DNA of 30,342 nt from positions 1 to 30,342 of IMG/VR virus record IMGVR_UViG_3300029286_001477. One strand, 5' to 3'. Shown here piece by piece: positions 1,334-30,218 of this stretch. This DNA comes from a virus. A program made the position numbers and the translations under genes. Each line of letters starts with the position of its first letter. Positions within the stretch are counted from its first letter, which is position 1. The notes beneath the pieces are model-generated. The model was not told the DNA's origin and searched no databases. It saw only the letters and a list, made by a program, of their open reading frames with translations.

Positions 1334-1525
1334 ATGAAATGCCAAACATGCGAGCAGTTGAAAGTCGAAACCCTAGCCATCGCGGAGGGGGCTGCGCCGA
1401 TCCGGTTGGAAGGGTTCACGATCACGGACCGGATCCACGCGCTGCACGGCGCGCTGGAAAAGCTCCTGACCGAAATGAACAGCACGCGCGGATTTATACT
1501 GGCGGATTTATTCGTGAAGGAATAG
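1334..1525 (+). CDS. Small CxxC protein, 63 aa
   Basis: The ORF starts just after the previous stop, with AGGAGG at 1320-1325 as ribosome binding site. The product starts MKCQTCEQLKVETLAIAEG, so C3 and C6 form one CxxC pair. One pair is too few for a classical zinc ribbon unless the protein dimerises. Residues 30-60 look like an amphipathic helix (HALHGALEKLLTEM). I recognise no family. Spacing and codon use support a real gene in the tiny-gene operon. Confidence 0.65.
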   Translation: MKCQTCEQLKVETLAIAEGAAPIRLEGFTITDRIHALHGALEKLLTEMNSTRGFILADLFVKE

Positions 1526-1528
1526 GCT

Positions 1529-1699
1529 ATGCAGGACTTCGAACGACACTACCGGGCGCAACTGGCGCAGGCAAAGATCGACTATGCCAAGGACCAGGCG
1601 CGGGCGCTGAAGCGGTATCAACGGGCGCAGGTCAGAGCAATCGAAATGTACGAACGAAACAGCAACCGGCCGGGAGGCCAACAGGAGTTGAAGCTATGA
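1529..1699 (+). CDS. Small charged helical protein, 56 aa
   Basis: The ATG follows the previous stop by three bases and the TGA overlaps the next ATG (ATGA at 1696-1699), so it is probably coupled on both sides. The product (MQDFERHYRAQLAQAKIDYA...) is highly charged, with regularly spaced Ala, Gln, Arg and Tyr over residues 5-45, as in a single long helix. It could be a coiled-coil adaptor or a nucleic-acid-binding peptide. There is no recognisable motif and no upstream Shine-Dalgarno sequence of note. Confidence 0.55.
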   Translation: MQDFERHYRAQLAQAKIDYAKDQARALKRYQRAQVRAIEMYERNSNRPGGQQELKL

Positions 1700-1869
1700 T
1701 CTGCAAGAAATGCGGACAGGACCATCACAAAGCGATCCAATGCATCGGAGGGAAGGGCGGCAAGGCACCGAAGCATGAAGAGGCGCAACGGGCCAACGCG
1801 AATAAGCGCTGGGCGGCGTGGCGGGCGGCAAAGTCGCAGCCTGAAGCTGGGACCAATCAACCGGAATAA
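1696..1869 (+). CDS. Small Cys/His protein, 57 aa
   Basis: The ATG lies inside the stop of the gene before it. The product begins MICKKCGQDHHKAIQCIGGK: C3, C6 and C16 with H10 and H11 make a plausible single zinc site. After it comes a Lys/Gly-rich segment and a basic helix (RANANKRWAAWRAAKS). This combination is common in small nucleic-acid-binding phage proteins, but I cannot name the family. It is the last of the six small genes and is followed 23 bases later by a factor-independent terminator. Confidence 0.6.
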   Translation: MICKKCGQDHHKAIQCIGGKGGKAPKHEEAQRANANKRWAAWRAAKSQPEAGTNQPE

Positions 1870-1892
1870 GCAAACACAAAATGGGGCACTAC

Positions 1893-1929
1893 AAGGCCAT
1901 CGGCGCGAGGGCGACCGGTGGCCTTTTTT
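1893..1929 (+). terminator. Rho-independent terminator before the large-terminase gene
   Basis: AAGGCCA at 1893-1899 pairs with TGGCCTT at 1919-1925, and the stem extends inward through CGG/CCG (1901-1903 with 1915-1917). The loop is about 11 bases and T6 (1924-1929) closes the structure. It should end transcripts of the tiny-gene cluster. I see no good promoter between it and the large-terminase start 26 bases on, so late expression probably needs read-through or antitermination. Confidence 0.8.
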
Positions 1930-1933
1930 CTGT

Positions 1934-1964
1934 CCATAGGCTAACAGTTCGCCTATGGGTAGGA
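1934..1964 (+). repeat. Hairpin repeat, copy 1, containing the large-terminase start codon
   Basis: CCATAGGC (1934-1941) and GCCTATGG (1951-1958) form a perfect 8-bp stem with the loop TAACAGTTC. The ATG at 1955-1957 is inside the 3' arm. The shared repeat core covers 1938-1964 and recurs at 3249-3275 and 4758-4783. The placement suggests an RNA hairpin that hides the start codon, but this is inference. Confidence 0.75.
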
Positions 1965-3247
1965 TGTTCACGCTCACGCCCAAACAAGAAATCGCGTGGC
2001 ACGATCACCTTGCCCGCCCGGACATTCGCCGCCATCTTTTCTACGGCGGCGCGCGATCCGGCAAGACAGACGTAATCCTCGCATGGCTTTGCGTCGAGGC
2101 CGCTACCTATCCCGGCGCGCGGATACTCATGGCGCGACGCACGCGGATTGCTGCCGCCAAGAGCCTCTGGTCGGATAGCCTGGTCAAAATGCTCCGCGGC
2201 CGGCCGGACTTCAAGATGTTGGAAAGCGACCTGGAGATTCGGCACGAGAATGGATCCCTGATCCGCGTGGACGGATTCGACGACCAGGAGCGCGTTGACA
2301 AGATTCTCGGCACGGAATACCTGCACATCTTTTTCAACGAAGCCACGCAAATAAGCTGGGATACTGTCGGCACGGTCCTAACCCGACTGGCCCAAATTGT
2401 TGACGGCTCTCCGTCGCACAAGGCAATTTTCGACTGCAATCCGAAGAGCCAACGCCACTGGCTCTACAAAGCCGGGATCCTACACCAAAATCCGGAAACA
2501 GGGGAGCCACTACCGGACGCCGCGACCTGGAGCTCGATGCACTGGCTACCCGCTGACAACCCATACCTGAGCAAAGACTTTCTGGAAACACTCGAAGCCA
2601 TGACCGGGCCCCAGCGCCGGCGAATGCTGGATGGGGTATGGTGCGAGGGCGGCGGCGCGGTCTATGACGAATTCGACGAAGTGCAACACGTTCACAAGGG
2701 CCCCATGCCTGCGGGCTGGCAGCACTGGGAGAAAGTGCGCGGCATCGACTTCGGCTACACCAACCCATTCGTCTGCCTCTGGGGCGCGATCGATCAGGAC
2801 GGCCGCCTGTGGATTTACCGGGAGCGCTACGTCGCCAAGCAAACCGTCCAGATCCACGCCGCGGCGATCAAATCAATGGAACCAAAAACCACGTCCTACC
2901 GATGGACAATCGCCGATCATGATGCCGAGGACCGGGCCACGCTCCATGAGGCTGGAATTTTCACTCAACGCGCCAGCAAAAATGTCGAACGTGGGATCAA
3001 GGCAGTCAAGGAACGGCTAAAAGTCCAACCGGACGGCCGGCCGCGTCTGATCATCTGCGACAGTTGCCCGGAAACGATCAGCGAGTTCTACGACTATGCC
3101 TGGCAGCCACAATCTGACGGCCGGAACGCCAAGGAAGCCCCACTGAAGGACCGCGATCATGCCATGGACCCGATCCGGTACATGGTCATGAAACTCGACC
3201 AGTGCCGGGGCGGCGGCCTGGCCATTCCCGGCTATTTGCCGGTTTAA
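1955..3247 (+). CDS. terL: Phage terminase large subunit
   Basis: This is the DNA-packaging motor: the N-terminal ATPase drives DNA into the prohead and the C-terminal nuclease cuts the concatemer. In its 430 residues I see a Walker A (GGARSGKT, 31-38), a Walker B ending in Glu (LHIFFNEA, 123-130), a coupling motif (FDCNP, 159-163) and RNase H-like nuclease acidics (GIDFGYTNPF with D265; ADHDAED with D321/D323; DRDHAMDP with D401/D405). Length and order fit Terminase_6/3-type large subunits. The ATG at 1955 lies in a hairpin arm and lacks a good ribosome binding site. ATG 1964 (three residues shorter) is possible, but GGGTAGG is too close to it. The portal gene follows 32 bases later. Confidence 0.93.
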   Translation: MGRMFTLTPKQEIAWHDHLARPDIRRHLFYGGARSGKTDVILAWLCVEAATYPGARILMARRTRIAAAKSLWSDSLVKMLRGRPDFKMLESDLEIRHENGSLIRVDGFDDQERVDKILGTEYLHIFFNEATQISWDTVGTVLTRLAQIVDGSPSHKAIFDCNPKSQRHWLYKAGILHQNPETGEPLPDAATWSSMHWLPADNPYLSKDFLETLEAMTGPQRRRMLDGVWCEGGGAVYDEFDEVQHVHKGPMPAGWQHWEKVRGIDFGYTNPFVCLWGAIDQDGRLWIYRERYVAKQTVQIHAAAIKSMEPKTTSYRWTIADHDAEDRATLHEAGIFTQRASKNVERGIKAVKERLKVQPDGRPRLIICDSCPETISEFYDYAWQPQSDGRNAKEAPLKDRDHAMDPIRYMVMKLDQCRGGGLAIPGYLPV

Positions 3248-3248
3248 C

Positions 3249-3275
3249 AGGCTAACAGTTCGCCTATGGGTAGGA
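3249..3275 (+). repeat. Hairpin repeat, copy 2, between terminase and portal
   Basis: This copy is identical to copy 1 over 27 bases. It begins one base after the terminase stop. Its own stem is weaker (AGGC/GCCT, 3249-3252 with 3262-3265). Its 3' end, GGGTAGGA, supplies the ribosome binding site for the portal ATG at 3280. Confidence 0.8.
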
Positions 3276-3279
3276 ACCA

Positions 3280-4764
3280 ATGACACCAGACAAAACAGAT
3301 CCACGTTTAACACGCTCCAACATCATCCTGTCCACCAGGGCGGAGCAGATCCGCTTAAACCTGCTGGCAGTCGCCGGCGGCCGGCCATACATCGATGCCC
3401 GCCTGTCCCGGCTACCATTTGAGAGTGAAATCTCGTGGAACGGCCAAGCCGCTCGCCCGCTAAACAGTAAATATTTCAATGCCACGGGAGGCGGGCATGG
3501 TGAAGGGCGCCGCGCTCGCGCATTCCTAATCAACTACGCCGGCCGCATCACCCGCAAAATAAACCAATTTGTTTTTTCGACAGAAGTCCAGCGTCAGAAA
3601 TCGGATTCATTATTCCGAGCCGATACAACGCGCACCGGCACGCCAATCGATACATTCATGGCGCGTGTAAGCCAAATCGTTACTGCAGCGCAATGGTGTT
3701 GGATCAGCGTTGACCGCGATTCACTGCCACGCGACGCCCAAGGCCAACCAGTCCAGCGCAGCGTGGCGGACAAAGAGGCGAGCGGCGACCGGGTCTTCTG
3801 GTCAGTCTGGACACCGGACGAGGTTGTCGACTGGCACTTTGACCGTACCGGCAAACTTCTCTGGCTAATCACGGAACAGACGGTCTATGACAATGAACAC
3901 TTCGACATGCCGGCGACAAACCGACCGGTCCGGACGATCTGGCAGCGGGGCGAAGGAAGACGGCTATGGCTCAATCCCGAAGACAAAACGAAAATCGACA
4001 AAGAAGAAACTTTCAGCACCACACTGGACGAGGTTGGATTCATACCGGTGGGCACACCATCGGCGGCAGCCTGGTGGTTTGATGACGTGGAGATGATCCT
4101 GGCCGCCATCCTGAATCTTACATCGGCCCATCACGAAAATCTTTTCCAATCCGTCTATCCGCAATTGATTCTCCCCGACACCATGCTGCAAACGATCATG
4201 GACCGGCTAAAAATATCCGGCGAGGCGGTCATGGAAATGATCCGGGGCCTCAACTACCCGATCTTCGAACCACTGGAAGCCAGCGGTCTGACGCGCTACC
4301 TGATGCCGAATGCCGGGGATATGACCCCAATTCCGAACGCGCTCGATCGGCTCCGGGAAGAAGTCATGAAAATTGTCGGCCTGGCATTGCAAAATCCTGA
4401 TTCGCGGCAAGTACAAAGCGCTGAATCGAAAGCATGGGACCATCTTGATCCCGAGGCGGTGCTGAAGGAGCGCACGCAGATCCTCGAGGAATGCGAGACA
4501 AAAGCCGTGGCGCTCTCGCGCCGGCTGGACAATACCTTCGCCGAATACCAACCAGTATACGGAAAGACGTTCAACGTGCGCGACATCATGGCCGACATGG
4601 CCACGTTAATGGAAGTAAAAAAGATGGGCCTGCCGGCAATCGTCGACAAGGAATTTCAGAGGGCTGGAATTGAATTATTCGACCGACAATTCGGCATCCC
4701 GGAAGACCGAAAGCAACAGTACTTGGACGCAATCTTGAAGGCGGCACCGGCGGCAACAGGCTAA
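3280..4764 (+). CDS. Phage portal protein
   Basis: The portal forms the dodecameric ring at one capsid vertex through which DNA passes. The call rests on position directly after the large terminase, on length (494 residues, usual for portals) and on features such as an early segment RTGTPIDTFMARVSQIVTAA and a long helical C-terminal half with ALDRLREEVMKIVGLAL and an SAESKAWDHLDPEAVLKE stretch, typical of portal stem/wing helices. The start is set by AGGA of the repeat five bases upstream. The gene ends inside repeat copy 3 (TAA 4762-4764). I cannot name the exact portal family without a search. Confidence 0.85.
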   Translation: MTPDKTDPRLTRSNIILSTRAEQIRLNLLAVAGGRPYIDARLSRLPFESEISWNGQAARPLNSKYFNATGGGHGEGRRARAFLINYAGRITRKINQFVFSTEVQRQKSDSLFRADTTRTGTPIDTFMARVSQIVTAAQWCWISVDRDSLPRDAQGQPVQRSVADKEASGDRVFWSVWTPDEVVDWHFDRTGKLLWLITEQTVYDNEHFDMPATNRPVRTIWQRGEGRRLWLNPEDKTKIDKEETFSTTLDEVGFIPVGTPSAAAWWFDDVEMILAAILNLTSAHHENLFQSVYPQLILPDTMLQTIMDRLKISGEAVMEMIRGLNYPIFEPLEASGLTRYLMPNAGDMTPIPNALDRLREEVMKIVGLALQNPDSRQVQSAESKAWDHLDPEAVLKERTQILEECETKAVALSRRLDNTFAEYQPVYGKTFNVRDIMADMATLMEVKKMGLPAIVDKEFQRAGIELFDRQFGIPEDRKQQYLDAILKAAPAATG

Positions 4765-4783
4765 CAGTTAGCCTATGGGTAGA
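4758..4783 (+). repeat. Hairpin repeat, copy 3, overlapping the portal stop
   Basis: It differs from copies 1 and 2 by C to A in the loop and by G to A near the 3' end. The loop change extends the palindrome to AGGCTAA/TTAGCCT (4758-4764 with 4768-4774), a 7-bp stem with a CAG loop. The portal stop codon lies in the left arm. It is followed directly by AGAAGGAGATGGT, a strong ribosome binding site for ATG 4794. Confidence 0.8.
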
Positions 4784-4793
4784 AGGAGATGGT

Positions 4794-4820
4794 ATGCCGA
4801 TCTATAGCAGCAGTAAGTAG
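4794..4820 (+). CDS. Eight-residue mini-ORF with a strong ribosome binding site
   Basis: AAGGAG sits seven bases before this ATG, yet the frame stops after MPIYSSSK at TAG 4818-4820. The next open frame starts at 4832. Either this is a leader peptide that feeds ribosomes to the next gene by re-initiation, or the two belong together through a -1 shift that would give MPIYSSSKVAWPTMNLPNM. There is no classical slippery heptamer at the junction. Confidence 0.4.
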   Translation: MPIYSSSK

Positions 4821-4831
4821 CATGGCCGACA

Positions 4832-5128
4832 ATGAATCTCCCAAACATGGGAGGCGGCTTGACGCGGCCATCACTCGGCGGATTTTCCAAGCCACTCAAC
4901 AAGATCAAAATCACGAACACGAAACCGAAGACGACGATCGGGCCGACGAAACAAAACCTTAAACAGAAGAATCGTTCAAATGCTGTAACCGTCACCAAAC
5001 CGAAACAACGCTCCTGGCTGGATCGATTTCTTAACGAATCGCCGCCGGGCCTGTATCCGGAGAAGCCGAAGAAAAGGAAAAAAAGTTATCGCGAGGAAAT
5101 GATATTGAAAGGTGGACTTCAGGACTAG
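4832..5128 (+). CDS. Small basic protein downstream of portal, 98 aa
   Basis: The product starts MNLPNMGGGLTRPSLGGF, is very basic (Lys-rich throughout) and ends with a segment SWLDRFLNESPPGLYPEKPK. Codon use stays regular to the end, which supports this frame over a 46-residue frame at 4822-4962 that overlaps it. The start has no ribosome binding site of its own; translation probably depends on the mini-ORF at 4794. By position between portal and scaffold it may be a head accessory or DNA-binding internal protein. No family is recognised. Confidence 0.6.
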   Translation: MNLPNMGGGLTRPSLGGFSKPLNKIKITNTKPKTTIGPTKQNLKQKNRSNAVTVTKPKQRSWLDRFLNESPPGLYPEKPKKRKKSYREEMILKGGLQD

Positions 5129-5173
5129 GCAAAATAATTTCTCGCCCACACTGTCGGGCGCATTTGGCAGGGC

Positions 5174-5194
5174 ACGGGGACCATGATACCCCGT
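5174..5194 (+). other. Short hairpin between two head genes
   Basis: ACGGGG (5174-5179) pairs with CCCCGT (5189-5194) around a nine-base loop. An A-run follows rather than a T-run, so it is not a good terminator on the plus strand. It may protect or process the mRNA. The rest of 5129-5215 shows only the ribosome binding site CAGGAG for the next gene. Confidence 0.4.
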
Positions 5195-5215
5195 AAAAAA
5201 TAATCAGGAGCAGCC

Positions 5216-5893
5216 ATGAATATCAAGGAACTGTTGGCGAAGATCAGCAAGGGCGAAGCATTGACAGACGAGGAAAAAGCGTTTGTCGCCGCTTATGACC
5301 CGGACAAGGCAGTCAACTCGAGCGCCGCAGCCGCCCGCAAAAGCGCGGAAGCGAAACTCAAGGAAAAAGAAGCCGAACTGCTGAAAATGCAGACCGACAT
5401 CGAAGCCTTGAAGGTTGAGGCCGAGGAAAAAGCGAACGCCAACAAACCGGAACTGGAAAAACTGACGCGCGAACTGGAAAAGCTAAAGAAGGGCCTGGCG
5501 GAAAAAGAAACGGCCGTCCAGCAACTGATTCAGGAAAAGCGCCAGATGATCCGGGGCGGGAAGATCAGCCGCGTCATGGCGAGTCTAAAATTTGTCGAAG
5601 GATTAGATCCGGACATAGTCCGCCTGGGCGTGGAAAAATCCCTGGCGGCGATCGGCGACGAGGATCTGGAATCGGAAGACGTGATAAAACCGATCCTGGA
5701 ATCGTTCAAGGCAAAGAATAAAGCAATTTTGGTGGATACCAGCGGACACGGCGGCGGTAATCCGCCTAAGAACGGGGGAGGTGGCGCGAACGACACGATG
5801 ACTATGAAAAAGGTCAAGGAAATGTCCCCGGAAGAGTTCTTAAAAAATAAGGACAAAATCTGGGCCGCTGACCTAAAGGGCGAACTCAAGTAA
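5216..5893 (+). CDS. Phage capsid scaffolding protein
   Basis: Scaffold proteins fill the prohead during assembly and are then lost. This 225-residue product has the usual make-up: a charged N-terminus (MNIKELLAKISKGEALTDEE), a long Lys/Glu-rich coiled coil at about residues 40-105, a middle segment (SRVMASLKFVEGLDPDIVRLGVEKSLAAI), a Gly/Asn-rich linker near 180-192 and a short charged C-terminal helix. This matches Gp20/DUF4355-like scaffolds by eye. It stands between portal and major capsid, the classical place. A good ribosome binding site (CAGGAG) lies eight bases before the ATG. Confidence 0.8.
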   Translation: MNIKELLAKISKGEALTDEEKAFVAAYDPDKAVNSSAAAARKSAEAKLKEKEAELLKMQTDIEALKVEAEEKANANKPELEKLTRELEKLKKGLAEKETAVQQLIQEKRQMIRGGKISRVMASLKFVEGLDPDIVRLGVEKSLAAIGDEDLESEDVIKPILESFKAKNKAILVDTSGHGGGNPPKNGGGGANDTMTMKKVKEMSPEEFLKNKDKIWAADLKGELK

Positions 5894-5921
5894 CAGCAAT
5901 AGAAAAAAGGAGATCAAAATC

Positions 5922-6299
5922 ATGCGTTTAATTATCAGTATTTCAATGTTCTTGGCCGCCTCGATCGGCGTTATGGCCCAGGGCTACACACCGCTCTCTC
6001 TGCAGAGTGTGCGTGCCGTGCACTCTCAAACCGTGACGAACGGTCAAGAGGTTACGCTTCGCACCGGTATTAACGTTCTGACTGCGGCAGGCCAGGCGGA
6101 TACCTATACCAACACGATCACGATTGCCAACTCCGCGTTGTCATCGTCCGGCTATGCCATCATCAATGCCGTTGCTTCGACAAATCTGATCGCCATTGCC
6201 AAGACCGGAAATTGGAAATCGGCTGCCGTTGAATTGGCGGCAGGTCAAATGGTCTTGATCATCTCATCGTCAACGAACGCGTTCCATTCGGTCAAGTAA
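5922..6299 (+). CDS. Small exported protein between scaffold and capsid genes, 125 aa
   Basis: The N-terminus MRLIISISMFLAASIGVMAQ is a textbook Sec signal peptide with likely cleavage around residues 19-20. The mature 105 residues are Thr/Ser/Asn-rich beta-strand sequence (VRAVHSQTVTNGQEVTLRTG, then TYTNTITIANSALSSSG). The start is fixed by AAAAAAGGAGATC, nearly identical to the leader of the capsid gene. A decoration or head-fibre protein would be expected here, but such proteins are not normally exported, so the signal peptide is odd. No family is recognised. Confidence 0.7.
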   Translation: MRLIISISMFLAASIGVMAQGYTPLSLQSVRAVHSQTVTNGQEVTLRTGINVLTAAGQADTYTNTITIANSALSSSGYAIINAVASTNLIAIAKTGNWKSAAVELAAGQMVLIISSSTNAFHSVK

Positions 6300-6360
6300 G
6301 TAGTCAGCGAAGCAAGAGTTCTCGAACGTTCAACAAGATCGAAAAAAAGGAGATCAAATC

Positions 6361-7209
6361 ATGGGTATGACAAACATCAAGTCTGAAATCTGGGCGCAGC
6401 AGATCATCGCATTGCTTGCGACACGGCTCGTTGCCGAAGGTATCTGCAATCCCCACGTGGTGCCGTCTGCCAATGGCGACAAGTGCCACATCGTGGGCGC
6501 CGGTGAAGTCACCGTGGACGATTACGATTCGTCCGAGGACATCGAATATCAGGATCCGGACGACACGGATACCGAGTTCACGTATAACGTGGACAAGAAA
6601 TTCGCGCTGATGGTCCACGACAAAGACATCAAGCAGGCGGCCATCTCCTGGCAGGAGTTGTACGCCAGTCGTGGCGCCTACGGCCTGATCAAGGCCCTGG
6701 ATGCCAGCGTGTTCGCGGATCATGCCTCTGCTGGTCTGGACAGCTACGAAAGCTCCTCGACCCCCTGGCAGCTCGGCGCCGCCGGCGCGGATGTTCCGAA
6801 CCTGTTCGCCGCCCTGGCAAAACAGCTCAATGATGCCGACGCGCCCCAAGAAGGCCGGTACATTGTGCTGCCCCCGATTGGGATCCAGGCCATGCAGCTC
6901 TACCTGACCGGAAAGTCAACCGACTTCGGCAACCAGGTCCTGCTGAACGGCCAGATCGGCCGCTTCATGGGCTTCGACGTGCACATGTCGAACAACCTCA
7001 CCACCGCGGCCACCACCATTCACGCCCTCGCGGGAGTCAAGGGTGATGGAATCGCCTGGAAGGTGCAGATCGATCCGAACGACATCGAGAGCCTGCGCTC
7101 CGAAGGTCGCTTCGCCACGCTGATTCGCGGGCGCGTCCTGGCCGGACACAAGGTCTATCGGTCCGGCATCGTGGTCGACGTGAACCTGAACACCACGTTG
7201 CTGGCGTAA
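6361..7209 (+). CDS. Major capsid protein, HK97-fold type (inferred)
   Basis: The main shell protein is expected directly after the scaffold, and this 282-residue soluble protein fits. It shows an N-terminal helical arm (IKSEIWAQQIIALLATRLVAEG), an acidic loop (DDYDSSEDIEYQDPDDTD), an A-domain-like stretch with RYIVLPPIGIQAMQLYL, then IGRFMGFDVHMSNNL and the C-terminal RGRVLAGHKVYRSGIVVDV. These are usual landmarks of P22-like or related HK97-fold coats of about 280-350 residues. A very strong ribosome binding site (AAAAAAAGGAGATC) suggests high expression. ATG 6367 is an alternative start. A strong hairpin follows the gene. Confidence 0.8.
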   Translation: MGMTNIKSEIWAQQIIALLATRLVAEGICNPHVVPSANGDKCHIVGAGEVTVDDYDSSEDIEYQDPDDTDTEFTYNVDKKFALMVHDKDIKQAAISWQELYASRGAYGLIKALDASVFADHASAGLDSYESSSTPWQLGAAGADVPNLFAALAKQLNDADAPQEGRYIVLPPIGIQAMQLYLTGKSTDFGNQVLLNGQIGRFMGFDVHMSNNLTTAATTIHALAGVKGDGIAWKVQIDPNDIESLRSEGRFATLIRGRVLAGHKVYRSGIVVDVNLNTTLLA

Positions 7210-7938: not shown

Positions 7939-8235
7939 ATGACGCTTAATATCTTGAAGATAATCAGTAAATCAAGAAACAGCTCGGTTGAAAAACAATC
8001 GGGCGTGATCGAAGCCGTTCCGCCGGCGACCGCAGGAAGAGCGGTAGAACGGAGCCGCCGGATAATCTACCTGATAACCCGATATGAAGGCGGTTCCCAA
8101 ACCGCTGCGTGGGCACTGGCCGATGAACTTGAAAAGGATCTGACGATCACCTGCGACGTTCTCCAAACTGAACCGTTCGTTTATTCCGTAGTAAGTAGTC
8201 AAAAAATAATCGGTGAATGGGGAGCTTGGGCTTAA
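7939..8235 (+). CDS. Hypothetical virion-region protein, 98 aa
   Basis: The start at ATG 7939 has AGAGGA upstream and leaves only one base after the previous stop. The protein begins with a basic stretch (MTLNILKIISKSRNSSVEKQ), then RRIIYLITRYEGGSQTAAWALADELEKD and a strand-rich end. Its size and location suit a head-closure or tail-completion protein, but no family is recognised. It overlaps the next gene as TAATG, indicating coupled translation. Confidence 0.6.
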   Translation: MTLNILKIISKSRNSSVEKQSGVIEAVPPATAGRAVERSRRIIYLITRYEGGSQTAAWALADELEKDLTITCDVLQTEPFVYSVVSSQKIIGEWGAWA

Positions 8236-10168: not shown

Positions 10169-12490
10169 ATGATAAAAAAGACTCCTTTCCGTAGGACGTC
10201 CCGATTCACTGGGTCTCCCGATCGCCCAGTCCCCTTGTCCTCTTTTCCCCTCCTTGGTGGGGCCAGGGGTGGGTTCTTGATCTCCGTGCTGCTCCTGTTC
10301 CTGGCATTCATTCCGTGCACCGGGTTCGCAGACGCGCAATATATGAAATGGACCTTGATTCCTGTCACAAATTATCCGGGTGTGCCCTATGCCGCCGCAC
10401 TGGCGGAATTACAATCGGCACTTCCCGGTCGTGGTGCGCGATGGGGGGTCCAGGGATCAACCCTTGCCACAAATGTGTCTGGTTATCAAACCCCAACGAC
10501 TTGGGAAATCGGCAGTTCATACACCATTGAATTTACGGCTCAATCAAATTATTACAGGATGCTCTCATCAAATTTTGTGATGACGGCTGCCATTTCCTAT
10601 ACGAACTGGTACATGCCGTATTCAAACACGCTTTCGATTACGGCATCAGGGTTAACGGCGCCTGCCGCCTGGACATTATCCGGACCATCCGAATTCAACA
10701 ACTCCTTGGCCTATCGGGCTGCCGGCACAAACTCCATGGATATTGTTGCCGTGCCGACCGGGACATACTCAGTTACTTTCCTGCCAGTCGTCGGATATCA
10801 CTCACCAGGCACAATCACCAGCGAAATCACCGCAACCAATCCGATAGTCAACACTATTGCCGGCACCTATTCACTTTCGTCCAATTCTTTGACCGTTCGA
10901 TTCCAACCGCCAGCCACCCAGCCTACAGCAAAGTATTGGGTGGATAATGTCGCTTTCCCGACTCTATTGGGGCCGTTTGGGCATAACATTCTGGCATCCT
11001 TGGCCGTATCAAATGATTATACCGTGACTTTCGGCGCGGTGCGCGGATATCAATTTGCGGCCTCGACGACGTTGACCAATTTCGTTGACGCTCGCATCCT
11101 TACCAATACTTTTATTCCGTATTCCAACAGCCTTGCCGTTGCCGTGGTCGGGAACACAAGCGGATCAAACTGCGTCTGGACCCTGGCCGGCCCGGACGAG
11201 TTCACGAATGCCGTCAGCTATGGCACAACGTTTACCAACTCATTCACGGTGTCGGGGATCCCGACCGGGCTTTACACGGTCACCTTCCCGGCAATTATCG
11301 GCTATTCCGCGCCGGCCGCAGCCGCTACCAACATCACCGGGGATAGTCCGCTGATCAATAGCATGACCGGAACCTATGCCAGCGTGATCTGGGGCACAAA
11401 CACCAGCACGAATACGCCGGCAACAAATTTCCCGGCCTCTACCAACGCCATCACGCTCATGGTGGATACCAATGGCCTATTCAAGACGCCCAGCAGGGAA
11501 AAGATCATTGAGGCGAATGGTCTTTTGACTATTGACGGAACAAATCTTGCCACGGGTCCACAGGGTCCAGCAGGTAGTAACGGGGCAGCTGGTGCCCAAG
11601 GTCCGCAGGGCATCCAGGGCCCCCAAGGTCCACCAGGATCAAATGGCATAAACGGCGCCACAGGGCCACAAGGTCCTGCTGGTACGAACGGCACAACTGG
11701 CGCTCAAGGCCCGCAGGGAATTCAGGGCCCGCAAGGTCCGGCCGGGAGTAATGGAATAGATGGCGCAGTTGGCCCACAGGGTCCGCCAGGAACAAACGGG
11801 GCCACAGGAGCCCAGGGGCCTCAAGGAGTGCCGGGGTCAAATGGCGTTGACGGCGCGGTCGGCCCGCAAGGCCCGGCAGGTACGAATGGGGCGGATGGCG
11901 CCACGGGCCCACAGGGACCGGCAGGTTCTAACGGCGTTGATGGCGCAGTCGGGCCACAAGGCCCGGCAGGTCCCGTGACAAATCGGATTGTTACCTACCT
12001 GGGAATCACGTACACCATCACGAACGATCCGACGGCAAGCGGGGACGTGCTCAAATTCGATCCCACCTCCAGCAACGCCTGGTTTGCTGCAGTTGGCGGC
12101 GCTGTCGGCGATCTGTCGTCCACCCAGATTGTCACCCGCATTGTGTCTTTTTCCGGCGTGGATTTTGATTCTCTTGTCGGCACAAATAGCCCGGATGACC
12201 TGTATCAGTTCTCGCTGACGATCGCCACCAACCCCGCCTTCACCGGCACGACTGTTTCCTTCCAGTCTACCAATAATCCCGCCGCCTGGTTCTACTGGAA
12301 CGGCGCACAATTTGAAGATATGGAATACGGAGAATTGCCGCACCTCTATCTTAATAGTTACCAGGCGCGCGTGTTCTATGCCTGGACAAACTCGATCCGG
12401 GGCGACACGTATTATTGCCGGGGCTATATCATCAACTCCGATCTGTTGTCCGTTATAAACATTGTCAATAAAGTACTGGAGCCCAAATGA
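10169..12490 (+). CDS. Exported collagen-like fibre protein, 773 aa
   Basis: The N-terminus carries a signal peptide interrupted by a foreign 32-residue block (residues 5-36): MIKK precedes it and [20 protein letters not shown] follows. After the signal come two similar beta domains (about 145-235 and 315-405) sharing the pattern [48 protein letters not shown] and a final GTY, like PEGA or carboxypeptidase-regulatory folds. Residues about 461-603 are an uninterrupted collagen-type G-X-Y run, then a beta-rich C-terminal domain of about 170 residues. This suits a trimeric adhesive fibre. GAGGAA nine bases upstream supports ATG 10169. Its TGA overlaps the next ATG. Fibres are normal in phages; exported ones are not. 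Confidence 0.75.
10181..10276 (+). repeat. Apparent repeat element inserted in frame in the signal-peptide region
   Basis: This 96-base block is exactly 32 codons. It translates to a Pro/Arg-rich, unhydrophobic stretch ([16 protein letters not shown]... [12 protein letters not shown]) that separates MIKK from a perfect hydrophobic signal core. It contains ACTGGG/CCCAGT inverted arms (10208-10213 and 10225-10230) and CCCC(N8)GGGG-type pairing. The end, coding for [10 protein letters not shown], resembles widespread intergenic palindromic repeats of bacterial chromosomes. Boundaries are inferred from the restored signal peptide. Confidence 0.6.
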
Positions 12491-18131: not shown

Positions 18132-19232
18132 TTAGATCCGGAGCGCGAAATAACGCCGAGCATCTTTTTCTGTGACCAGTTCCCGATAATGATCCCATAG
18201 AACGGCCGCAGAACCGCTATGCCCCAAAAGCATGGCGGTCTTGGCGGCGTCCTGATGCAATGCTAGGTGATAACTGGCAAAACTGTGCCTCATGGCGTTG
18301 TCGGGCCATTTTGGTAATTTGGCGGCCAAGGCGATCTTTCGAAGCCAGACGTAGAGCCGCCTGGTAGCGAGTGGGCAGACTCGGACATCTGGATGGTCAG
18401 ATTTAGCGATCAGCGGCCGCAGGGTGTCGGAGATCGGAATCAACCGTTGACGGCGCTTTTTGGCGACTGCCGGCGTTACCCGGATATGGGTTGCGGATAT
18501 GTCACCCCACCGCAGGGCCATAAGCTCGGCGGTCCGCAGGCCGGCGAACAGGCCGATACCAATCATGGGCAGGAAATCCCGGCGCAACTTCTTGGCGGAT
18601 TTCAAGATGGTCTTTGCCTGGTTCGGGGTGAATATCTCGGGAGTGGTTTCATCTTGTCGGCTGATCGTGATGGCCTCGGCAGGGTTGCTAACAATGGCGT
18701 CCAACCGACGGCACCAGTCGAAGAACCCCCACCAGGAGCGGCGCAAGTTGTTCCGGGTGACGGGCGCGGCGTTCAGTGTGCCAAGGTATTCCATGAGCAG
18801 GGCAGGGGTGACGGTGGAGATCAACCTTGAGCCATGATCGCGGGCCAGCCGGCCGATGTATGAGCGGAGATCGCCCAAGGACCGGGGCCGGAGGCCTGCG
18901 GCGGTCTTTTCGACTAGGTACTTGGCATAGAGTTCCTGAACTGTGGCCATGACCAGGGGGCTGGCCTTGTGCGCTTCCAGCCAGACCCGTGCGGCATCGA
19001 GCAGGGAGATCCCGGCCGGAAGCAGGCGCCGGGCGTCATCGGCATCTATGAGTTGCCGCTGATCCGGAGTGGATATGATGCGCTGCGCGGTGAGCTGTTC
19101 GGCATCGAGCCATGCCTGGCACTGGGGTACGGTGTCAAACACCTTCCGCCGTTGTCCGCCGCGGTTTATTTCCGCCAACCACTTGGTCCCCTTGGGCCGG
19201 ATCATGCCACCATTGTATCGGGTGTGGATCAT
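18132..19232 (-). CDS. int: Tyrosine recombinase, phage integrase
   Basis: This enzyme recombines attP with the host tRNA-Arg gene. The 366 residues show an arm-binding N-terminus (about 1-60), a core-binding helical domain (about 85-180) and a catalytic domain with R233 (GLFAGLRTAEL), K258/K259, R315 in NAMRHSF, H338 in LLGHSG and nucleophile Y349 in WDHYREL. The first box has Asn (DNAMRHS) in place of the usual His, a known natural variant. M1 and M10 are both possible starts. It points toward attP on the opposite strand from the late genes, as in many temperate phages. Confidence 0.93.
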   Translation of the reverse strand: MIHTRYNGGMIRPKGTKWLAEINRGGQRRKVFDTVPQCQAWLDAEQLTAQRIISTPDQRQLIDADDARRLLPAGISLLDAARVWLEAHKASPLVMATVQELYAKYLVEKTAAGLRPRSLGDLRSYIGRLARDHGSRLISTVTPALLMEYLGTLNAAPVTRNNLRRSWWGFFDWCRRLDAIVSNPAEAITISRQDETTPEIFTPNQAKTILKSAKKLRRDFLPMIGIGLFAGLRTAELMALRWGDISATHIRVTPAVAKKRRQRLIPISDTLRPLIAKSDHPDVRVCPLATRRLYVWLRKIALAAKLPKWPDNAMRHSFASYHLALHQDAAKTAMLLGHSGSAAVLWDHYRELVTEKDARRYFALRI

Positions 19233-22676: not shown

Positions 22677-23429
22677 ATGGCATCGAACGAACCGAATGTG
22701 ACGCAAAGCGCTGAGATCGGCAAACTGGCCGAAGCACTGGCTCTTGCCCAGGCGGATATAAAGGGTGCCATCAAAACGTGCGAGAATCCGTTTTACCACA
22801 GCCGGTACGCGGACCTGGCGACGGTCATGGATGCCTGCCGCGAACCGCTCAGCAAGCACGGCCTCGCAGTGTTCCAGACAACGGAAGGCGGAGCGGATAG
22901 CGTAACCGTCGTTACGACACTGGCCCATTCAAGCAATCAGTGGATCCGGGGCCGGTTGACGCTAAAGCCTGTCAAAGCGGATCCGCAAGGACTGGGGAGC
23001 TGCATCACCTACGGCCGGCGCTTCACGCTGGCCGCCATGGTGGGCGTGGCGCCAGAAGACGATGATGGAAACACGGCTTCGGGAAAACCCGTTTCCGGCC
23101 ATCCGCAACTGCATGAAGCCGAACCGGAAAAGAAAACCGCGTTTCAGCCGAAACAAAAAACCCCAGAGGTGCAAGAAATGCTGAAGACCGGCCAGGCGGT
23201 TGCGGTCCCACCGGTGTCCACCGCGGAAAAGGTGCCGCCAAAGCTACGGACCTTGATGGAATTAAGCGGCGTGTCGTTGCCGGAACTATACGCCTACCTG
23301 AAAGGAAAAGGCTGGTTAAAGCCGGATCAACCGATCTGGTCGCTGAACAAAGACATCTATGAAAAGATGATCGAGGACGCGAACTGGACAACGGTCGTGA
23401 ACAAAATCAAAGCCACGCGCAAGTCCTGA
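22677..23429 (+). CDS. erf: ERF-family single-strand annealing protein
   Basis: ERF proteins pair complementary DNA single strands and allow phage genome circularisation and recombination. The N-terminal 130 residues match the family closely: ALALAQADIKGAIKTCENPF, YHSRYADLATVMDACREPLS, KHGLAVFQTTEG, TVVTTLAHSSNQWIRGRLTL and DPQGLGSCITYGRRFTLAAM. An acidic/linker stretch and a helical C-terminal domain follow (total 250 residues, near the usual length). A good AGGGAGG site precedes ATG 22677. Its neighbours, an SMC-like ATPase upstream and a DUF669 protein downstream, form a standard recombination cassette. Confidence 0.9.
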   Translation: MASNEPNVTQSAEIGKLAEALALAQADIKGAIKTCENPFYHSRYADLATVMDACREPLSKHGLAVFQTTEGGADSVTVVTTLAHSSNQWIRGRLTLKPVKADPQGLGSCITYGRRFTLAAMVGVAPEDDDGNTASGKPVSGHPQLHEAEPEKKTAFQPKQKTPEVQEMLKTGQAVAVPPVSTAEKVPPKLRTLMELSGVSLPELYAYLKGKGWLKPDQPIWSLNKDIYEKMIEDANWTTVVNKIKATRKS

Positions 23430-24025: not shown

Positions 24026-25576
24026 ATGCAATTAAGGCATTACCAATCCGCTGCCGTCGAAGCGGTCTATCAGAAATGGCGCGAGTTCCGCCGCGTTCTG
24101 ATGGTCCTCCCAACCGGAACTGGAAAAACAATCTGCTTCGCGCATATCGCGACCAGAGAATCCGAGGCCGGGCGGCGGACTCTCATCCTGGCGCACCGCG
24201 ACGAGCTGATCCGCCAGGCAGTTGATAAACTGCACCGGGCCACCGGAGTTATGGCAGCGGTCGAGAAGGCCGAGGAAACATCGCTGGGCACATTGGGCAA
24301 TGTCGTTGTCGGCAGTGTGCAAACACTGATGCGACAGAGCCGGCTTGACCGCTTTGCGCCTAACCATTTCGATGCCATTGTGGTCGACGAGTGCCATCAT
24401 GCACTGTCAGATTCTTATCAGCGGGTCCTGTCTTATTTCGCCGACGCCCGTGTGTGCGGCGTCACCGCCACCCCGGACCGCGGCGACAAAAAGAACCTGG
24501 GCCAGTATTTCGAAGCGCTGGCCTATGAGTACGGTTTGCGGGACGCCATCCGGGACGGCTGGCTCTGCCGGATCGCGGCGCTGACCGTGCCGCTTAAAAT
24601 CGATCTATCCGCAGTCCGGATCACGGCCGGAGACTACAACGAGACCGACCTGGGCAACGCCTTGGATCCATACCTGCCACATATCGCCGATGCAATCCCG
24701 GCGGATCGCAAGACGCTTATATTCACGCCGCTCTGCGAAACCGCCAAGAAACTGAAGGGCTTCCTGCAGGAGATCGGACGCCAGGCCTTTTACGCCAGCG
24801 GAGAAGACCGAGGCGCAATGGCGGATTGGGAGGCGGCCGGTCCGGGCTCCGTAATGCTGAACGCCATGCTTCTGAATGAGGGCTACGATCATCCACCGAT
24901 AGACTGTATCTGCGTTTTGCGCTGTACGCGCTCGCGGCCGTTCTTCGCCCAGATGTGCGGCCGCGGCACGCGCATCTATCCGGGCAAACGCAATCTGCTA
25001 CTGCTGGATTTCCTCTGGAACACATCAACCCATGACCTTTGCCATCCGTGCAACCTGGTTGCCGGCACTCCAGAGATCGCCGAAAAGATGGAGAAGGCCC
25101 AGGAAGAGGCCAATGGCGAAATGGATTTGGACGATCTGGAGAAGCAGGCGCAATCCGACGTTATCCGGGAACGGGAAGAGGCACTGGCCGAAATATTACG
25201 CAGCCAGCGCAACAAGAAACGCACTATGATCGACCCGGTCGAATTCGGCATTTCAATCGCGGACGAGGATATTCTGGATTACGAACCGCTATTCGCATGG
25301 GAACACAAAGCCCCGACAGAAATCCAACTAAAGAAACTTGCTGAATTCGGCTTGGCGGTGGATGCCATCCCGAACCGTGGCTATGCAAGTAAATTGCTGG
25401 AACGCGCATACGCACGAAGCAGCCAGCGCCTGGCAAGACCCAGACAAGTCGCCCTGCTGCACAAATACGGCTACACGAACGCGGCCCAGATGAATTTTAA
25501 GGAAGCGGACAAAACGATCAAAGGGATTGCGGCAAACGGCTGGCAGCGGCCGGAGCCGGCGGAGATCGTGTTTTAA
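24026..25576 (+). CDS. Superfamily 2 DEAD/DEAH-type helicase
   Basis: The helicase opens DNA using ATP. In 516 residues I see the Q-like start LRHYQSAAVEAVYQKW, motif I PTGTGKT (29-35), Ia LILAHRDEL, II DECHH (121-125), III TATPDR (147-152), IV around TLIFTPLCETA, V around NEGYDHPPIDC and VI QMCGRGTR (309-316). The C-terminal 150 residues are specific to phage relatives, with a charged helix and a final repeat-like segment EIQLKKLAEFGLAVD. The start has no strong ribosome binding site; an ATG close to the motif start is the only reasonable choice. It probably acts in replication or recombination with the ERF and DUF669 proteins. Confidence 0.9.
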   Translation: MQLRHYQSAAVEAVYQKWREFRRVLMVLPTGTGKTICFAHIATRESEAGRRTLILAHRDELIRQAVDKLHRATGVMAAVEKAEETSLGTLGNVVVGSVQTLMRQSRLDRFAPNHFDAIVVDECHHALSDSYQRVLSYFADARVCGVTATPDRGDKKNLGQYFEALAYEYGLRDAIRDGWLCRIAALTVPLKIDLSAVRITAGDYNETDLGNALDPYLPHIADAIPADRKTLIFTPLCETAKKLKGFLQEIGRQAFYASGEDRGAMADWEAAGPGSVMLNAMLLNEGYDHPPIDCICVLRCTRSRPFFAQMCGRGTRIYPGKRNLLLLDFLWNTSTHDLCHPCNLVAGTPEIAEKMEKAQEEANGEMDLDDLEKQAQSDVIREREEALAEILRSQRNKKRTMIDPVEFGISIADEDILDYEPLFAWEHKAPTEIQLKKLAEFGLAVDAIPNRGYASKLLERAYARSSQRLARPRQVALLHKYGYTNAAQMNFKEADKTIKGIAANGWQRPEPAEIVF

Positions 25577-26092: not shown

Positions 26093-26153
26093 ACCTGAAT
26101 AGTGATACGGTAGCCGATACGATTATTTGATTGGTATCCGTAGAAAGAACCAA

Positions 26154-28346
26154 ATGACCGAAACAGAAAAAGCCCTTGCCTGCCTGGAGGTACTCGCCGC
26201 CTGGCGCGCAGATAGATACGAAAGTTGGATCGCGGTCGGAATGGCGTTGAAGTCCGCCGGCGCATCCCTGGATGCCTGGGACACCTGGAGCCGGCAATCC
26301 GGGAAGTACCAACCGGGCGCCTGTGAGCGTAAGTGGAATTCGTTCAACGGATCACTCGCCGGCGGCGTGACACTCGGCACCATTGCGGCCTGGGCACTGG
26401 AGGATAACGACGGCCAACCGACCTGGGAAAAGAATCCCGGCCAACCACTGAACTGGGAATCAGAAATCGGACGGGATAGGTCCACAATGAACCGACCCTC
26501 GGTCCACAATGAACCGACCACCTCGATCCCGGACCCGGCCGCAGACTGGGCGCCGGGAGATCTGGTCCGATACCTGGAGGCTCTCTACCAACCGGAAGAA
26601 TGCGTCTCCTATGCCGTCGAATCCCGGCAAGAAGCCGACGGCCGCTGGGTCCCGTCAGGTCTTGGCAACTACTGGCAAACGCGCACCGACCTGGTTGCCC
26701 GAATCAACAAGTACCAGGGCGACCTGCCCAGCGCGATCGGATCATGGCGACCGGAATGCGGCGCGTGGATCCGGCCGAACCCGATGGATGGCCAGGGGAT
26801 CAAGAACGACAACGTTTCCGATTATCGCCACGTCCTAGTCGAAGCCGACTCCATGCCGATTGCCGACCAACTCGCGGCGATCCGCCGACTGCAGTTGCCA
26901 TGCGCGGCGATCGTTCATTCCGGCGGCAAATCCATTCACGCCATCGTCAAGATCGATGCCGGCAAGGATTATCAACTCTACCGGCGCCGGATTGCCACCT
27001 TGTTCGACGCACTACGGGAGATCGGATTCGAGCCGGACCGGCAATGCCGCAATCCGGCCAGACTTTCCCGAATGCCCGGCATCGAGCGCGCCGGCAAGCC
27101 GCAGTATCTTATCGCCCTGCAAACCGGATTGCCGTCTTGGCAGGCATGGGAGGCCTGGCGCAAGGCGGAAGAGGAGAAGCCGCCAGACGGCGAACCGCTG
27201 CCGCAGATCAAGACCCTGGCCGAGCTGGTCCGGGTCCAGTCGGGCCACGATCCGGATGAACTGCTCAAATACCGGTACCTGTCCCGAGGCGGCGGCCTAC
27301 TACTTGTGGCCCAGACCGGCGCCGGCAAGTCATCCTTCGTCATGCAAGCGGCCATGCTGTGGGCCCTGGAGCGGCCGTTTTTCGGGATCACGCCGGCACG
27401 GCCGCTAAGAACGTTGATCGTCCAGGCGGAAAACGACGAGGGCGATATGGCCGAGATGCGCGACGGCGTCCTGGAATCCATAGACTTGGACGCCGAATCC
27501 CGCGACCTGGTCCTGTCATCGGTCCGGACGGTCTATGATAATGCCCACACAAGCCACCAGTTCGGCCAGGTACTCCGATCGCTTCTGACCGCGACTCCGA
27601 CCGACCTACTGGTCATTGATCCGGCCCTAGCCTATCTGGGCGGCGATTCAGGCCAACAGAAGGACGTCTCTCTGTTCCTGCGCAACATCCTGAACCCGAT
27701 TCTGACGGAGTTCCGGATTGGCCTGATCCTGGTCCACCACACGACCAAGCCGCCGAAGGGCGATGAACGCTCAAAATGGCAAGGCGGCGACTTCGCCTAC
27801 CTGGGCGCCGGCGCGGCGGAGTGGGGCAACTGGGCACGCGGCATCATCAATATCGAGGCAAAGGAAACTGTCTACAAGCTACGCCTACCGAAACGCGGCA
27901 AGCGGATTGGCTGGCGCGACGCGGAGAACAATGCCGAAGTTCTCCGGTACATCGCCCACGCCAAGGATCCAGCCCAGATATACTGGCGGGAGGCGGACTT
28001 TGACGAGATACCGCTGGAAGGCGATAAATCGGCTGCTGGCGCCAGCCAGCAACGCACCCAGACGCCCAAGCCGCCGCTGGAGGCATATCTTCCCCTGGCA
28101 GTGGAGTTATCGGCCAAAGGCCCAGTCCAGACCACGATCTTCAGGGCCTCTCTCGACGGCCTAACCGTGGACGACATCCGGATGTCACGCACCTACGAAC
28201 GCGCTCTGTTCGATATGCTGACGAAGGGTGACAACCCGCCCCTGGCGGTCACGAAAAAGAGGGTCGGGTTTGCCCAGTTCATAGGTGCGCCGGACGCCAT
28301 TCTAAAACTCGAAAACGACCAGAAAACCCAGAAACTCAACTTTTGA
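26154..28346 (+). CDS. Primase-helicase (PriCT, primase-like and RepA-type ATPase domains)
   Basis: This 730-residue protein combines replication domains. Residues about 15-75 (ESWIAVGMALKSAGASLDAW, then GKYQPGACERKWNSFNG) match a PriCT-type domain. Residues about 220-330 have HVLVEADSM, PCAAIVHSGGKSIHAIVKID and RLSRMPG, as in archaeo-eukaryotic-type primase domains of phage replication proteins. Residues about 375-560 form a RepA/RecA-like ATPase with Walker A QTGAGKSS (near 386-393), Walker B LLVIDPA (near 486-491) and LVHHTTK. ATG 26154 is preferred to a TTG at 26127. It is followed immediately by a repeat-rich non-coding region, the likely origin. Confidence 0.82.
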   Translation: MTETEKALACLEVLAAWRADRYESWIAVGMALKSAGASLDAWDTWSRQSGKYQPGACERKWNSFNGSLAGGVTLGTIAAWALEDNDGQPTWEKNPGQPLNWESEIGRDRSTMNRPSVHNEPTTSIPDPAADWAPGDLVRYLEALYQPEECVSYAVESRQEADGRWVPSGLGNYWQTRTDLVARINKYQGDLPSAIGSWRPECGAWIRPNPMDGQGIKNDNVSDYRHVLVEADSMPIADQLAAIRRLQLPCAAIVHSGGKSIHAIVKIDAGKDYQLYRRRIATLFDALREIGFEPDRQCRNPARLSRMPGIERAGKPQYLIALQTGLPSWQAWEAWRKAEEEKPPDGEPLPQIKTLAELVRVQSGHDPDELLKYRYLSRGGGLLLVAQTGAGKSSFVMQAAMLWALERPFFGITPARPLRTLIVQAENDEGDMAEMRDGVLESIDLDAESRDLVLSSVRTVYDNAHTSHQFGQVLRSLLTATPTDLLVIDPALAYLGGDSGQQKDVSLFLRNILNPILTEFRIGLILVHHTTKPPKGDERSKWQGGDFAYLGAGAAEWGNWARGIINIEAKETVYKLRLPKRGKRIGWRDAENNAEVLRYIAHAKDPAQIYWREADFDEIPLEGDKSAAGASQQRTQTPKPPLEAYLPLAVELSAKGPVQTTIFRASLDGLTVDDIRMSRTYERALFDMLTKGDNPPLAVTKKRVGFAQFIGAPDAILKLENDQKTQKLNF

Positions 28347-29714: not shown

Positions 29715-30218
29715 ATGAATGATAACGAAGAACTCAATACGAAAAATAAGGTTGAGCCAATATCCGGAAAAGCAAAAGGGTGGAGTAATTTAATTCCAGT
29801 GAAAAAGGGGCAAGTATTAAATGTAAAGGGACAAAGCAAAGGACGAACAGCAAGATCAATACTCACGTGGATAGGAAGACGAAAACCACCTAATGATCTG
29901 GCGGAAGTGATGCGCAGAAAGTTCAACATGGAAAGATATACGATCGACAACGAGACGGCGATCTTACTCTGCCTGACATACATGGCCATGAAGGGGGATT
30001 TGCGCGCCATTGAATTATGGCTTGATCGAAAATATGGCAAGGTGACAACACAGATCGACGTGACGACAACTAATCCGGGTCCACTGGTCCAGATACTCAA
30101 CGCACCAGCGGGGGATAGGACAATGACGGTTATACGCGATGTCCAAGCAAAAAAAATAATTGATGTGTCGGTCGAATCTAATTCTGTTCCCACGACATAT
30201 CCCACGAAAGACGAATGA
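29715..30218 (+). CDS. Terminase small subunit candidate (DUF5681-like)
   Basis: The small terminase recognises phage DNA for packaging. In this 167-residue protein, residues 37-65 (KGQSKGRTARSILTWIGRRK) resemble the start of DUF5681-type proteins, which read G(R/K)-x-KGR..RS. A helical stretch follows (LAEVMRRKFNME, then NETAILLCLTYMAMKGDLRA) and the block IELWLDRKYGKVTTQIDV, again characteristic of that group, which often sits beside the terminase. The C-terminal 40 residues look flexible. If the window is circular, the large terminase follows about 2 kb downstream. The gene is AT-richer than its neighbours. Confidence 0.6.
   Translation: MNDNEELNTKNKVEPISGKAKGWSNLIPVKKGQVLNVKGQSKGRTARSILTWIGRRKPPNDLAEVMRRKFNMERYTIDNETAILLCLTYMAMKGDLRAIELWLDRKYGKVTTQIDVTTTNPGPLVQILNAPAGDRTMTVIRDVQAKKIIDVSVESNSVPTTYPTKDE

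Follow-up and report, generated by a model that had tools for sequence, protein, structure and literature searches.

The packaging-gene locus

The window, which is the whole 30,342-nt stretch of DNA that was analysed, is a 30.3-kb linear IMG/VR virus sequence from a temperate phage. A preliminary description had pointed to a 27-base repeat at three packaging-gene junctions, and the repeat is real: the copies at 1938-1964 and 3249-3275 agree in every base (27/27), the third at 4758-4784 matches at 25/27 positions, and the pattern CTAACAGTTNGCCTATGGGTAG is found three times in the window against a chance expectation of 0 (100 dinucleotide shuffles). Its placement at the terminase and portal junctions had also been described correctly, with copies ahead of the gene for the large terminase subunit (TerL), within the 32-nt TerL-portal gap, and across the portal stop codon. 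No further CTAACAGTTNGCCTATGGGTAG copy occurs elsewhere in the window record, and the exact pattern was not found in the IMG/VR or GTDB genomes scanned. Within each copy, positions 1-21 of the motif shared with relatives form the element called E here, which the window spells CTAAC-AGTTC-GCCT-ATGGG-TA.

1928-1954: inverted partial copy of E, overlapping E copy 1 and forming a 12-bp hairpin
1938-1964, plus strand: E copy 1, ahead of TerL; motif positions 1-21 at 1941-1961; predicted +1 at A1961, with a 3-nt leader to ATG 1964
1964-3247, plus strand: TerL (PBSX type), start at 1964 preferred to 1955
3249-3275, plus strand: E copy 2, between TerL and portal; motif at 3252-3272; predicted +1 at A3272, with the 8-nt leader AGGAACCA to ATG 3280
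3280-4764, plus strand: portal protein (phrog_145)
4758-4784, plus strand: E copy 3, on the portal stop codon TAA (4762-4764); motif at 4761-4781; predicted +1 at A4781
4832-5128, plus strand: 98-aa ORF in the portal-scaffold interval, lacking a family match; L136 and L137 also have ORFs in this position
5142-5200, plus strand: structured leader of the scaffold gene, formed by an H-type pseudoknot and a following hairpin
5216-5893, plus strand: head scaffolding protein (phrog_206), 3' of the structured leader
18132-19232, minus strand: integrase
22677-23429: ERF
24026-25576: helicase
26127-28346: primase

The TerL start codon had been placed inside the stem formed by copy 1, that is, at ATG 1955. 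ATG 1964 is more likely to be the start, because the start codons of relatives (ATG in L004, GTG in L010-L012) line up with it.

Distribution and anatomy of the element

TerL relatives at 85-87% identity comprise L004 from IMG/VR and four loci of one Kiritimatiellae MAG (L010-L013). These close relatives carry a homologous but different TTGACATTCYGGCYATRGG before TerL, before the portal gene and after it. E is present at all three sites in L004 and in the Kiritimatiellae MAG prophages L046 and L047, and on either side of the portal gene in L066, which comes from another MAG. The copy ahead of TerL is restricted to the closest relatives plus a degenerate version in L114, and the copy after the portal gene overlaps the portal stop codon in the window, prophage L046 and L066. 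Across a wider family, E flanks the portal gene on both sides in most of about 20 genomes, down to 40% portal identity. In portal relatives down to about 34-47% identity, TTGA(C/T)-N5-GGCY lies directly upstream of the portal gene, where the TGA of the motif is often the TerL stop codon, and recurs between the portal gene and the scaffold leader. Distant portal relatives (L073, L074 and other portals at 25-31% identity) display no convincing shared junction element.

The consensus drawn from relatives has TTGAC at positions 1-5, five variable bases, GGCY at 11-14 and usually AT at 15-16. TTGAC-N5-GGC is matched at 7 or more of its 8 fixed bases in 13/20 pre-portal and 16/19 post-portal sites versus 8.6% of background windows; the template was drawn from the same sequences, which makes the spacer comparison the fairer control, and spacings other than N5 reach 7/8 matches at 0-6 sites. 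The motif was defined post hoc, after the sequences had been viewed, and its copies were picked partly by eye, among them the weakest ones, those in L111, L114 and L115. The sample of relatives contains several fragments, parts of its MAG prophages may have decayed or been misassembled, and duplicate IMG/VR records were counted once. Two tests are free of the template, one being the pyrimidine-purine (Y/R) step and start codon at positions 20-21 (see below) and the other the likeness of copies within a genome. The best 20-mers before and after the portal gene agree at a mean of 14.5/20 positions within a genome versus 12.3 between genomes (0/5000 permutations, p<0.0002), as expected if a phage-specific factor reads them.

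The preliminary description had asked whether the repeat is scattered at random in related genomes and had entertained a small mobile intercistronic element. E instead recurs at the same gene junctions, and a weight-matrix scan detects no site beyond the three, either in the window or in each phage region scanned. A mobile repeat of the REP or MITE kind is not supported, on these grounds: there are three fixed junctions per phage region, spelling differs between genomes, and copies within a genome are alike. Two other identities were set aside. Copy 3 contains GGCTAAC/GTTAGCC, which resembles the attC cores of integron-like cassette attachment sites, but it breaks the RYYYAAC/GTTRRRY rule and is absent from relatives. 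A packaging (cos/pac) site is unlikely for copies that lie 1.3-1.5 kb apart with variable cargo between them.

That cargo is diverse. In L004, L011, L012 and L066 it includes a TIR-domain effector, an M23 peptidase, DUF3800, Usp with a Na/H exchanger, and a TPR protein, located in the TerL-portal interval or ahead of TerL, directly upstream of E, with some genes pointing away. The fact that such varied cargo ends just upstream of E in these four genomes is what a site of insertion or recombination, through which foreign genes enter the packaging region, would produce. This explanation is very improbable, however, as the cargo has no common left boundary and no second site at its other end, and E is retained in the window and in many relatives that lack cargo.

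E also persists where the packaging genes do not. Those TerL copies of the MAG that are decayed still retain it, and three decayed prophages (L045, L046 at 4867-5035 and L051 at 8005-8213) keep E together with only the first 44-66 TerL codons, one of them being a TerL-portal deletion fusion. In L069 (1-3356), E heads a satellite-like gene set that encodes two HTH proteins, a RepA-like ATPase, a primase and a protein related to the DUF5681 protein of the window (29715-30218); near-identical contig ends are present in L067 and L068, all three contigs belonging to one MAG.

Tests of a shared RNA hairpin

The repeat was originally read as an RNA control element shared by TerL and the portal gene, in which the transcribed repeat folds and a bound phage protein sets translation of both genes jointly. 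Part of this proposal stands, since a shared element is tied to both genes, but the common hairpin does not. Copy 1 folds at -16.2 kcal/mol (z -3.0) and is the only copy that is better than its shuffles, which is attributable to the inverted partial copy of E that overlaps it. The z scores of copies 2 and 3 are -0.4 and -0.1; the longer stem that had been ascribed to copy 3 exists in the sequence but confers no unusual stability. In a test over 19 homologous sites of the closest relatives, with shuffles and a partner slid by one column as controls, pairing in the proposed 8-bp stem extends to 48.7% of cells versus 46.8% when shuffled and 53.9% when slid. The compensatory changes that had been suggested as a check are no more frequent than in shuffles at these sites, and on pair counting a shared RNA stem is rejected.

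Position-specific inverted repeats are nonetheless seen, and they use different arms at different sites (13 bp in L004, L011 and L066; 12 bp at window copy 1). The 13-bp repeat encloses the portal start, with z scores of -3.7 to -4.6, and between L011 and L066 both arms change, from T-A to C-G. Together with the folding of copy 1, this hairpin speaks for an RNA operator. The corresponding hairpin in L012, however, has a C-A mismatch, the TerL copies of relatives lack a matching 3' arm, and many post-portal copies have no start codon nearby. With the stem not kept in relatives and two of the window copies folding no better than shuffles, a hairpin operator at E appears improbable. The inverted repeat at the portal start may instead be a local regulatory layer, at the DNA or RNA level, that is not common to the sites.

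The view that no described element has this sequence is borne out. The window has no Rfam match at the gathering threshold, eight relatives yield only tRNAs at an E-value below 0.1, and literature searches on an element like E found nothing.

A candidate transcription-start element

The right-hand end of E is its most regular part. Positions 20-21, which had no role in defining the motif, form a Y/R step in 46/48 copies versus 25% expected, and a start codon stands exactly at position 21 in 14/28 pre-gene copies versus 4.4% expected. A start point would be expected to show such a Y/R step at constant spacing, and the step is consistent with transcription starting at the end of the box. E is probably a short phage-specific transcription-start element that gives TerL and portal mRNAs with short leaders or none. 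Positions 20-21 would serve as -1/+1, with transcription beginning at position 21, and a trans-acting factor specific to each phage would read the element. The three copies would then produce separate transcripts for TerL, for the portal protein and for a post-portal unit (scaffold, capsid). The TerL and portal mRNAs would have little or no leader, and none at all where the start codon is at position 21.

Several observations from individual genomes bear on this proposal. At the post-portal site, E and the next gene are separated by roughly 100 nt or more that include a structured leader, so E is more than just a ribosome-binding region. A degenerate E in L005 ends 5 nt ahead of a tRNA-Met gene, a position for which a translational element would not account. 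In L012 and L011, the interval separating TerL from the portal gene is occupied by opposite-strand genes (Usp and Na/H exchanger; DUF3800) that stop just short of E, and cargo in this orientation means that the portal gene needs its own start site. Finally, sigma-70-type promoters replace E at both portal junctions of L124 and L126 (4/4 sites), with TTGCCG, TTGACG, GTGACG or TTGACT as the first box, a spacer of 17-18, TAAAAT, TACAAT or TATAAT as the second, and TG preceding the second box at all four sites. Taken together, the evidence favours a transcription-start element over a translational operator.

The same observations speak to cleavage of a single late transcript at the Y/R step, which would release the TerL, portal and scaffold mRNAs. 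The fixed place of the step, the intergenic location of E and the tRNA 5 nt downstream in L005 would all suit an RNA processing site. The long transcript that this requires is broken by the opposite-strand cargo of L011 and L012, however, and sigma-70-type promoters take the place of E in L124 and L126, which leaves processing a slim prospect.

A DNA operator is somewhat easier to accommodate, although still unlikely. E would bind a phage repressor or activator whose target promoters have gone unrecognised, and would not itself set the start. Inverted half-sites occur in the portal sites of relatives and in window copy 1 (TGACATTCYGGC on both strands), and 1928-1954 forms an inverted repeat with 4758-4784; such half-sites suit a dimeric DNA-binding protein, with E being asymmetric elsewhere. 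Against this, E is tied to a start point by the constant place of its Y/R step and by the start codon found at position 21, and a second conserved promoter motif is not seen near E.

If E does start transcription, then uncultured temperate phages, some of them in Kiritimatiellae, would use a short promoter of an unusual kind to transcribe their packaging and capsid genes. Sigma-70 rules or a T7-type polymerase would not explain such a promoter, pointing to an unrecognised transcription factor. E would also help to locate cargo and late genes in these phages, and it would provide an example of packaging mRNAs without leaders.

Comparison with known promoter classes

E shares some features with each of several promoter classes. 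Like T7-class promoters, it is about 20 bp long, lies just upstream of the start, is repeated before several late genes, and is alike within one phage but different between phages; T7 TATAGGG is also similar to TAT(A/G)GG in the window and Kiritimatiellae copies. E differs in its putative start at Y/R rather than GGG and in having other conserved boxes. No single-subunit RNA polymerase (PF00940) was detected in 15 viral records and 3 MAGs, some of which may be fragments, whereas the T7 control scored 1e-110, and no RNA polymerase is found among the window proteins scanned. A T7-type promoter with a phage-encoded polymerase was rejected despite its attractive geometry, as the polymerase is missing in these 18 relatives.

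The TTGAC box recalls sigma-70 promoters, and true sigma-70-type ones occupy the same two junctions in L124 and L126. E nevertheless has no -10 box at 16-18 nt and carries its GGCY block 5 nt after TTGAC. By inspection, TTGACA/TATAAT boxes 16-18 nt apart are missing from the E-type copies of relatives, and a scan of window 1500-6500 finds no plus-strand sigma-70 promoter. The search for a phage-encoded sigma factor returned no sigma-70 region 4 above the cut-off, only sub-threshold scraps. A general host promoter was also rejected: in most of 116 related genomes TTGACNNNNNGGCYATNNNYR is about as frequent as in the control, and in G001, which has 16 matches versus 0 in the control, nearly all are phage-type copies.

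Activator-dependent late promoters of the P2 Ogr and Mu C type supply one temperate phage with multiple late promoters that have a site in common. E resembles them in this respect, and also in its possible further use by the satellite-like element of L069. The P2 Ogr and Mu C sites, however, are dyads or lie at about -55 with a separate -10, whereas E ends at the putative start point.

Possible readers of E include a phage protein that has gone unrecognised, a highly diverged polymerase and a factor from the host. More tentatively, E might represent a separate class of promoter in which boxes near -20 and -10 are followed immediately by the start. Its reader would be an unrecognised RNA polymerase, sigma factor or activator, co-evolving with E across a large family of uncultured phages, and the TerL and portal mRNAs would be leaderless. 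The portal protein has no match among 50,697 phage records.

The structured leader of the scaffold gene

A second element precedes the scaffold gene in the window and in about 20 relatives, including L107-L109, L111-L118, L123, L125, L136, L011 and L012. In the window, the leader at 5142-5200 folds as an H-type pseudoknot with stems S1 (5143-5146/5157-5160) and S2 (5151-5155/5166-5170), followed by a hairpin (5175-5179/5189-5193). Its order is constant, with S2 directly adjoining S1', then the hairpin and then the ribosome-binding site. In a five-sequence alignment, 97.1% of cells are paired compared with 32-44% in slid versions, and seven cells are changed on both sides, a number reached by 0/500 shuffles. 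This covariation is the firmer part of the evidence. Compared with random windows drawn from the same loci, the leaders give a combined p of 2e-14, with 2/20 failing; this value is optimistic because the folding rule and anchor points were set after inspection. A generic pseudoknot search without anchoring failed to recover the structure, and the leader has no Rfam match.

Autogenously regulated phage mRNA leaders include the T4 gene 32 pseudoknot and the P22 scaffold leader, scaffold being the regulated gene in P22. The leader at 5142-5200 is likewise an H-type pseudoknot in a phage gene leader, and its gene encodes a scaffold as in P22. It differs in sequence and phage family, and the comparison concerns the leader, not E. 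If the assignment is right, the leader would be a second new cis-regulatory RNA.

Other repeats and the ends of the record

Additional repeats are present in the window. The 17-bp repeat AAAAARGGAGATCAAAW occurs at 848-864, 5903-5919 and 6343-6359, and two of its copies lie directly ahead of the ORFs at 5922 and 6361, where they look like a common ribosome-binding context. A collagen-like tail-fibre gene (773 aa) contains internal repeats of about 101 nt at 11510-11961. The DUF5681-like protein at 29715-30218 is perhaps a small terminase; in L047 a homologue precedes TerL, and the right end of the window may therefore join the left end.
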